The notes beneath the pieces are model-generated. The model was not told the origin of the DNA, made no database searches, and worked only from the letters and a program-made list of their open reading frames with translations. This document shows, piece by piece, positions 10,725-63,531 of a stretch of 64,000 bases of DNA (its first letter is position 1; each line of letters begins with the position of its first letter). The stretch is from Methylobacterium sp. (GTDB lineage Bacteria > Pseudomonadota > Alphaproteobacteria > Rhizobiales > Beijerinckiaceae): NCBI RefSeq assembly GCF_028290105.1, contig NZ_JAQGKL010000037.1, positions 40,194-104,193 of the forward strand, written 5' to 3'. The position numbers and the translations under genes were made by a program.

Positions 10725-10816
10725 CGAGCGGTGCCGCATCGGGAAGACGGGGTCGCGCCGGATCGGTGCGGCCCTCCCGGAGCCTGTCGGGGCTCCGGCT
10801 TCGGGAGACGCGTGAG

Positions 10817-11290
10817 ATGGCATCCAACGAGACCGACCCGCCGCGCGATTCGGCACTGCAACGCGCCGAGGCCGCCGGTGATGCGGTCGCCGAGGCCCTG
10901 GAACGCTACCTCGACCGCCTCGTGACGGCGAGCGGCACGGCTCGCACCGAACTCGACGCGGACCTGCGGGCGGCGGGCCGGCTGATGGCCCGCCACACCC
11001 ACCGGCAGCTCGCCGCCAATCTCGGCCTGATGCAGGGACTGATGGCGTCGCGCGGCATCCCGGCGATGCTGCAGCTCCAGCAGGACTTCCTGCGCCGCCA
11101 GGCGGAATGGGCGATCCGCGATTGGGAGCGGGCAGGGGCTCAAGCCCTCGACCTCCTGGACGAGGCTCGGCGCACGGCGAGAGGAAGCGGACCGCCGGAC
11201 GTTCCCGGGCGGGGTGCGACCCAGTCCGACGTTCCTGGGCCCGCCCTGCCGTCGCCGGAGGCGGATCCCGAAGCCGGCCGAGTCGATTGA
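10817..11290 (+). CDS. phasin-like helical protein
   Basis: 157 residues. ATG 10817 was preferred to the upstream GTG of the track because GGAGACG lies just upstream and the extra residues are Arg-rich. The region 15-115 is predicted all-helical and Ala/Leu/Gln rich, with a patch (ANLGLMQGLMASRGIPAML, then QQDFLRRQAEWAIRDWE) resembling phasins that coat polyhydroxyalkanoate granules. The C-terminal ~40 residues are a disordered Gly/Pro tail. The genus it suggests makes PHB, but the assignment rests on general resemblance only. Confidence 0.55.
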   Translation: MASNETDPPRDSALQRAEAAGDAVAEALERYLDRLVTASGTARTELDADLRAAGRLMARHTHRQLAANLGLMQGLMASRGIPAMLQLQQDFLRRQAEWAIRDWERAGAQALDLLDEARRTARGSGPPDVPGRGATQSDVPGPALPSPEADPEAGRVD

Positions 11291-61481: not shown

Positions 61482-61694
61482 TCAGGACCGGCGGCGCAGA
61501 CGCGGCGCGGCGATGTCCGGCTCGGGCATGCGTTCATAGCGGACGCCCGTGAACAGCAGGATCGCGCCGCGCGGGGCCTGCTCGTCCTGGCGCCGGAACC
61601 GGCGGCCGGCGGTGGGAAACGTCACGACGGTGTTCGTCGGACGATCAGGGAGGCGCTCGATGCCTCCCAATTGTAGCGACCTGTCGGGGCTCAT
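61482..61694 (-). CDS. small protein, unknown
   Basis: 70 residues from ATG 61694 (MSPDRSLQLGG), upstream AAGAG. The end APRGAILLFTGVRYERMPEPD resembles a short conserved protein family of Rhizobiales that I recall only loosely. Ends 23 bases before the lipoprotein start, so the two may be one transcript. No function to suggest. Confidence 0.5.
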   Translation of the reverse strand: MSPDRSLQLGGIERLPDRPTNTVVTFPTAGRRFRRQDEQAPRGAILLFTGVRYERMPEPDIAAPRLRRRS

Positions 61695-61944
61695 CGGCTC
61701 TTTTCCGATCCCATGCATCATGTGGGGCGACCCGTCATCGGGGTTCGCCACCCCCGCCTCCGGGCCGTATCGGCGTCGCGGGGGAGCCGCCGGAGATCAG
61801 CACGGCGTGGTTAACGGAATGTTGCTGCGCGTGTCCCACGTTGGGCTGCACGGGGCGGGACGATGCGCTCCGCTCGCCCGTGTCTTTCGCATCACGCGAG
61901 ATTTTCCGCATCACTTCGGCGGCTCTGGGCGGTGGCGCATGATT

Positions 61945-62023
61945 TGCATTCAGTTTTATCGCCCATGGCGGGCATTTCCTCCCTTGCACTCGGCCCCGCT
62001 CGCCCGGCGAGCGGGGCTTTTTT
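61945..62023 (+). ncRNA. mmgR: candidate MmgR/alpha-r8 (suhB-motif) small RNA
   Basis: There is no protein gene on this strand for 300 bases upstream, yet a perfect intrinsic terminator ends at 62023. Just before it lies TTTCCTCCCT (61975-61984), which as I recall is the invariant single-stranded core of the alphaproteobacterial MmgR/alpha-r8 sRNA family. A small hairpin (gccc/gggc, 61961-61973) precedes the core. Such RNAs are about 77 nt, giving a start near 61945; the 5' end is a guess and no promoter could be named. The core can pair with ribosome binding sites; in Sinorhizobium it limits PHB accumulation. Confidence 0.65.
61993..62023 (+). terminator. intrinsic terminator of the small RNA
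   Basis: gccccgctcg and cgagcggggc form a perfect ten-bp stem with a five-base loop (cccgg), followed by TTTTTT at 62018-62023. This is the best intrinsic terminator in the window. Confidence 0.9.
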
Positions 62024-62208
62024 GCAATCCCGTGTGCGGATCGTGGGCGCCTCGTCCGCAGGACCAGCGGGAACACCTGGCCGAGCCAACGCTTGCTAAG
62101 GGCGGGGTACGCCCGATATGCCGATGGCCTTCGAGCGGGGGCTTCACGCTACGCCCCGACACCCATTCCATCCCCCATCGTTCCATTCCGAATGAAGGAC
62201 GCCGCAGC

Positions 62209-62502
62209 ATGCGCGTGTTGACCGCACGATCCACTCGCCCGGCCCTGGGCCTCCGCACCGCCCTGAAGGTCGCGCCTTTCGCCCTGCTGGTGCTGGCCGC
62301 AACCCCCGTCCAGGCCCAGCGCGAGGACCAGGGCCTTCAACTGGGTTGCGCGAACGACTATTTCCGCCTCTGTGCCGGTGTCGATCCCAACAGCCAGGAC
62401 GCCGAGCGCTGCATGGACCGCAACCGCTCGCGCCTCTCGCCGGAATGCCGGAACGCCATCGGCGACTACGACCGGCGGACCGGCGGCAAGTCGCAGAAAT
62501 AG
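62209..62502 (+). CDS. secreted Cys-containing protein (GLG1-repeat-like)
   Basis: 97 residues from ATG 62209, preceded by gaaggacgcc. Signal peptide (LRTALKVAPFALLVLAATPVQAQ) leads to a mature part of about 60 residues with four cysteines: LGCANDYFRLCAGVDPNSQDAERCMDRNRSRLSPECRNAI. The spacing resembles Cys-rich GLG1-type repeats, also found in short bacterial periplasmic proteins. Function unknown. Confidence 0.72.
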   Translation: MRVLTARSTRPALGLRTALKVAPFALLVLAATPVQAQREDQGLQLGCANDYFRLCAGVDPNSQDAERCMDRNRSRLSPECRNAIGDYDRRTGGKSQK

Positions 62503-62580: not shown

Positions 62581-63531
62581 ATGGCCCTGACCGTCGCGGT
62601 GCAGATGGACCCGATCCAGGCGATCCGGATCGCCGGGGACACCACGTTCGCCCTGCTGCTCGAGGCACAGGCGCGCGGGCACCGACTCCTGCACTACACG
62701 CCCGATCGCCTGTCGATGCAGGGCAACACCGTGACGGCACGTGTCGAGACCCTGAGCGTGCAGGATGTCGAGGGCGCGCACGCAACACTCGGTGCGCCCG
62801 AGCGCATCGACCTGTCGGGCGTCGACGTGGTCCTGATGCGCCAGGACCCACCCTTCGACATGGCTTACATCACCGCCACCCACATGCTGGAGCGCATCCA
62901 TCCGCGCACCCTGGTGGTGAACAACCCGTCCGAGGTGCGCAACGCGCCCGAGAAGCTGTTCGTCCTCGACTTCCCCGAACTGATGCCGCCCACGCTCATC
63001 ACCCGCGACAAGGCGGAGATCGAGGCCTTCCGGGCCGAGCACGGCGCCATCGTGATGAAGCCCCTCCACGGCCACGGCGGCGCGGCGGTGTTCCGGGTGC
63101 TGCCGGAGGACGCGAATTTCGGCTCGATGTTCGACCTGTTCTCGGTGACGTTCCGCGAGCAGTGGGTGGTGCAGCGTTTCCTGCCGCGCATCACCGAGGG
63201 CGACAAGCGCATCATCCTCGTCGACGGCGAGCCCATGGGCGCCATCAACCGGGTTCCGGCCCTCAACGACATCCGCTCCAACATGGTGCGGGGCGGGGCG
63301 GCGGCGGCTTCCGATCTCACGGAGCGCGAGCGCGCCATCTGCGCCACCATCGGCCCCGAACTCCGTCGGCGTGGCCTCATCCTCGTCGGCATCGACGTCA
63401 TCGACGGCAACCTCACCGAGATCAACGTCACCTCGCCCACCGGCATCCGGGCGATCAAGCGCCTCGGCGGACCGGACCTCGCGATCACGGTGTGGGATGC
63501 GATCGAGGGGCGGCTCGGGGCGGTGGGCTGA
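62581..63531 (+). CDS. gshB: glutathione synthetase
   Basis: 316 residues. It joins gamma-glutamylcysteine and glycine with ATP. N-terminus [30 protein letters not shown] is characteristic; ATP-grasp motifs are [16 protein letters not shown] near 160, [26 protein letters not shown] near 200 and [13 protein letters not shown] near the C-terminus. ATG 62581 lies 78 bases after the secreted protein gene, with ggagagttga as ribosome site. Confidence 0.96.

Follow-up and report, generated by a model that had tools for sequence, protein, structure and literature searches.

A candidate MmgR-type (alpha-r8) small RNA gene with a genus-conserved sigma-54 promoter element upstream of gshB in Methylobacterium

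Does the short intergenic stretch at 61945-62023 of the 64-kb piece of Methylobacterium DNA analysed here (the window) encode a regulatory RNA, and if so, to which family does it belong and what controls it? The original prediction assigned the stretch to the alpha-r8/MmgR small RNAs, which pair with the ribosome-binding sites of mRNAs. Our analysis indicates that it very probably yields a short regulatory RNA of this kind. The most informative feature of the locus is a sigma-54 promoter element, which was absent from the original prediction. What is new here is a genus-conserved alpha-r8 lineage, apparently under sigma-54 control, that is distinct from the canonical copies carrying PhaR boxes.

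Results

Architecture and family assignment

The TTTCCTCCCT core at 61975-61984 is preceded by a small hairpin and followed by a strong GC terminator with a T6 tract (Table 1). Sequence, coordinates and fold agree with the proposed layout of a core between a gccc/gggc hairpin and a GC terminator. The terminator had been described as a perfect ten-bp GC stem plus T6; the T6 tract was found as described, but the stem (61992-62018) is longer, with 12 pairs, 10 of them GC. RNA folding gave a z-score of -3.2 for 61945-62023 and of -3.0 for 61960-62023, with the core left unpaired. The 10-mer core defines the alpha-r8 RNAs and has an anti-Shine-Dalgarno signature in Caulobacter (PMC12559287). In the 4,162,597-base genome the exact 10-mer occurs four times, versus no occurrence of the reversed control, and two of the four copies are unmistakable Rfam suhB/mmgR genes. 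The fourth copy, L010 (G000:C100:2027-2116), carries the exact core ahead of a terminator-like stem and scores 15.6 bits, and the same genome holds a further low-scoring alpha-r8-like locus with GTTCCTCCCG, L165 (G000:C193:25247-25322).

Table 1. Features of the sRNA locus and its surroundings (window coordinates)
Feature	Position	Strand	Basis
Conserved upstream element CAGCACGGCGTGGTTAACGG	61798..61817	.	Kept in loci with the same flanking genes
Sigma-54 (RpoN) -24/-12 promoter element TGGCGCATGATTTGCA	61933..61948	+	Orthologue invariance
Predicted ~65-nt sRNA transcript	61959..62023	+	Inferred from sigma-54 geometry and terminator
5' hairpin GCCC AUGGC GGGC (DNA GCCC-ATGGC-GGGC)	61961..61973	+	RNA fold, genus conservation
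Unpaired anti-Shine-Dalgarno core UUUCCUCCCU	61975..61984	+	Fold, conservation, alpha-r8 10-mer
Intrinsic terminator, GC stem plus T6	61992..62023	+	Terminator call, covariation
Conserved 97-aa protein, probably secreted, downstream neighbour	62209..62502	+	tblastn homologues, 19 Methylobacterium loci
Glutathione synthetase gshB, downstream neighbour	62581..63531	+	PF02955/PF02951; synteny anchor

A covariance search with the suhB model had been proposed as a check of the family assignment. RF00519 (suhB/mmgR) is the top Rfam match in an E-value search (61954-62032, 38.1 bits, E = 1e-6), but this score falls ~3 bits short of the family's gathering cut-off of 41 bits, and no Rfam family matches the window at the gathering threshold. 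We therefore class the window copy as a divergent variant and not as an ordinary member. The cut-off is passed by 16 of the 25 syntenic orthologues (41.3-52.3 bits), including that of M. goesingense (41.9 bits). The window copy has the alpha-r8 traits, namely an unpaired 10-nt core, a weak hairpin directly 5' of it and a Rho-independent terminator on the 3' side. Within its own genome it ranks third for suhB after the copies on contigs C240 and C15 (74.5 and 73.8 bits), and it is these two canonical copies (74 bits), not the window copy, that most resemble Sinorhizobium mmgR. The proposed alpha-r8/MmgR identity is thus borne out by the best Rfam match, by orthologues that exceed the cut-off, by the syntenic conservation of the core and by terminator covariation.

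Conservation and genomic context

A synteny comparison, proposed with the original prediction, showed that each of the 25 Methylobacterium/Methylorubrum gshB loci fetched has the core and hairpin 5' of gshB in the same orientation; the core reads TTATCCTCCC in two of them (M. salsuginis and M. rhodinum). The closest named relative of the window gshB is that of Methylobacterium goesingense (98% identity). No sRNA-like core copy was detected at 55 other alphaproteobacterial gshB loci. Of 111 genus genomes, 81 contain the hairpin GCCCAWGGCGGGC together with the core, and 17 contain a CTCATGGGCG-hairpin variant. An alignment of 26 orthologues revealed 97% standard pairs in the terminator stem with double-sided changes in six of nine pairs, a covariation exceeding that of shuffled and slid controls.

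The 97-aa protein encoded between the sRNA and gshB has conserved cysteines and no Pfam or NCBIfam match, and it is missing from aquaticum-type loci. On the other side, the element CAKCAYGNNRTGGTTAACGG at 61798-61817 is unique in the genome and absent from aquaticum-type loci that retain the sigma-54 promoter and the sRNA. Since it tracks the neighbouring genes and not the sigma-54 promoter, it probably lies outside the sRNA gene, and it probably regulates a divergent small gene (minus strand, ~61482-61751). The conserved upstream GTGGTTAACGG element was considered as an enhancer and rejected, because it accompanies this divergent gene rather than the sRNA.

The stable neighbourhood can also be read as that of a cis-acting leader, with the sigma-54 promoter driving the 97-aa gene and gshB, the terminator serving as an attenuator, and the short RNA being a by-product or both products being of importance. 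Loci that lack the 97-aa gene still have the sRNA beside gshB, at a distance of ~60 nt, and several orthologues have a poor T-tract behind the stem, which may make termination leaky in these loci. However, the terminator of the window copy is strong with its T6 tract, the distance between the sRNA and gshB ranges from ~60 to ~780 nt among loci, the predicted folds show no alternative antiterminator pairing, and the invariant 10-mer with its hairpin fits a known trans-acting family. We consider a cis-acting role improbable and favour a free-standing gene for a trans-acting sRNA.

The sigma-54 promoter element

The window element TGGC-N7-TTGC at 61933-61947 fits the GG-N10-GC pattern of sigma-54 promoters, with exactly 10 nt between the -24 GG and the -12 GC. 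Both strands of the 64 kb were scanned with TGGCNYRNNNNTTGCW, giving a single match. All 56 orthologue sequences carry an unchanged GG-N10-GC at 25-27 nt ahead of the core, against a rate of 2.4% for the sigma-54 element among stretches drawn at random from the window, although the orthologues are related and some represent one strain from two collections; the argument therefore rests on invariance against a variable background and not on counts as independent trials. T-GGC/TTGC is nearly invariant in the same 56 sequences, and in the 26-orthologue alignment the positions G17 G18 C19 and T28 G29 C30 are invariant upstream of the RNA. The GG-N10-GC element was absent from all 31 canonical paralogue promoters examined, which are those of the top-scoring copies, in most cases a single one from each genome. 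Among the CTCATGGGCG variants, all 14 sigma-54-flagged loci have a non-canonical spacer, and loci with the canonical AGACT spacer have no sigma-54 element. The genome encodes rpoN (PF04552 C-terminal match, 33.1 bits), in a gene truncated where contig C298 ends. Upstream sequences showed no enrichment of NtrC-like TGCACC-N3..7-GGTGCA-like sites.

Promoters of the sigma-54 type serve nutrient-starvation responses, and their geometry places the transcription start ~12 nt past the -12 GC. With GG-N10-GC located as above, this spacing gives a predicted start at ~61959 and a predicted RNA of ~65 nt. The start at 61945 in the original prediction is accordingly probably too early, since 61944-61947 is the -12 half of the promoter. 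An ordinary alpha-r8 copy transcribed from a sigma-70 promoter, with the sigma-54-like element lying unused, would have a precedent in the -35/-10 boxes of S. meliloti mmgR (PMC8401924). Nevertheless, no sigma-70-like site was found in 61500-62300, and GG-N10-GC is invariant and fixed in spacing within variable surrounding sequence, which makes this explanation very unlikely. The chance placement of a protein-gene terminator beside a random pyrimidine run, to which the sub-threshold Rfam score of the window copy taken by itself might point, has a negligible probability, being already refuted by genus-wide syntenic conservation and covariation.

A search across the order found the sigma-54 plus core pattern in five of nine genus genomes sampled and in one of 389 other genomes (G080), where the surroundings are not sRNA-like; these counts are lower bounds because the patterns require the exact 10-mer and TGGC/TTGC. 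A class-wide sample contained one convincing sigma-54 alpha-r8 gene in another order (G593, L230: TGGCACGCCCCTTGC, 44.5 bits). Thus, the layout is seldom seen beyond Methylobacterium, without being exclusive to this genus. L230 is flanked by an MFS transporter and a CDP-alcohol phosphatidyltransferase-like ORF.

Canonical paralogues and the PhaR box

All 37 Methylobacterium genomes searched contain 5-19 suhB matches at E <= 0.01, and other genera of the order contain 0 to 4 per genome (61 genomes searched in all). This sRNA family is unusually expanded in G006, G015, G020, G036 and other Methylobacterium, where a genome can have as many as 19 suhB-family matches. A PhaR-like YGCRNYGCR motif occurs within 70 nt of 30 of the 31 canonical copies versus 3 of the 56 sequences of the sigma-54 lineage (background 5%), and close to their promoters the canonical copies have TTGTGC[A/G]NTGC-like dyads. 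In S. meliloti, the YGCRNYGCR core is the PhaR/AniA motif and PhaR targets mmgR (PMC12542648). Mutation of phaR in M. extorquens AM1 rewires transcription with hfq going up, in a study that did not cover sRNAs (PMC6520949). A PF09361 phasin gene is located ~5 kb from the canonical alpha-r8 copy on G000:C240.

Candidate targets

A phasin-like gene in the window had been put forward as a connection to PHB accumulation. None of the four PF09361 phasin matches of the genome lies inside the window, where the nearest phasin candidate (10766-11290) reaches 14.9 bits against a TIGR01985 cut-off of 99.7 bits. A PHB/phasin link drawn from the window was rejected, as no phasin there passes a curated cut-off, and no strong Shine-Dalgarno match to the core was found among the genome's four phasins. 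From 24 ribosome-binding sites of the window tested, that of gshB showed the strongest pairing (-13.5 kcal/mol). The gshB mRNA was nonetheless rejected as a target, because orthologues do not preserve this pairing. A genome-wide scan for GGGAGGAA-N2-10-ATG gave 11 matches versus four in the reversed control, the best real gene among them being a sorbosone-dehydrogenase-like ORF on contig C132. One close homologue retains its Shine-Dalgarno match, and a match is also present at a single more distant homologous locus; as a putative sRNA target, this ORF is only a lead.

Discussion

Proposed function

With a probability of roughly 0.85, the locus would be an independent gene encoding a trans-acting alpha-r8/MmgR sRNA of ~65 nt whose transcription is started by sigma-54 and whose core blocks several mRNAs. 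RNA polymerase with sigma-54 would initiate at ~61959 under an enhancer-binding activator, the foremost candidate being NtrC, as suggested by S. meliloti mmgR, and the transcript would end at the terminator, near 62023. The RNA is predicted to display the single-stranded UUUCCUCCCU between two hairpins. This core, probably with the help of Hfq, would block the translation of several mRNAs by pairing with their G/A-rich Shine-Dalgarno regions; we infer repression of multiple mRNAs because Caulobacter SisA, which has the same 10-mer, represses many targets (PMC12559287).

The canonical copies, with their sigma-70-type promoters and PhaR-like boxes, should therefore report the PHB/carbon state, and the window copy a sigma-54 signal, with nitrogen limitation as the most likely one. 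A tentative extension, which we hold to be possible though less probable than not, is that Methylobacterium split the inputs of S. meliloti mmgR, assigning PhaR, and with it the PHB state, to the canonical copies and a sigma-54 activator, answering nitrogen or some other starvation signal, to a dedicated copy, the whole acting as a carbon/nitrogen integrator. If so, siblings with one anti-Shine-Dalgarno seed would integrate carbon and nitrogen at the RNA level. A multicopy alpha-r8 family divided by promoter type makes sibling redundancy versus separate action directly testable, and it suggests a route to separating nitrogen and PHB signals in an industrially used methylotroph genus.

Comparison with known systems

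The window sRNA resembles S. meliloti MmgR (RF00519) in its weak hairpin, unpaired UUUCCUCCCU, terminator and small size. MmgR is tied to nutrient state, with NtrC as a positive and AniA/PhaR as a negative regulator (PMC7143759, PMC8401924). It is encoded by one 77-nt gene whose -35 and -10 boxes enclose the PhaR dyad (PMC8401924), whereas the window copy combines a -24/-12 promoter with a shorter predicted RNA and lacks a PhaR-like box, with the spacer UUGCACUC in place of the S. meliloti AGACUU and the loop AUGGC. A published table lists MmgR under both RpoD and RpoN (PMC7143759), and a sigma-54 link has thus been suggested before.

AbcR1/2 (alpha-r15) share CU-rich anti-Shine-Dalgarno motifs and partial suhB similarity, but these RNAs of ~115-120 nt have three stem-loops and two such motifs, which the window element does not match. 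Pseudomonas CrcZ/CrcY are likewise sRNAs from sigma-54 promoters answering the carbon/nitrogen state (PMC8401924), although they sequester Hfq/Crc and are unrelated in sequence to the window sRNA. The organization in Methylobacterium is like that of Caulobacter SisA-D, with several siblings per genome, a common 10-mer and separate promoter control of each (PMC12559287). However, no conserved motif has been reported for the SisA-D promoters, whereas in Methylobacterium one sibling lineage carries a genus-wide sigma-54 element.
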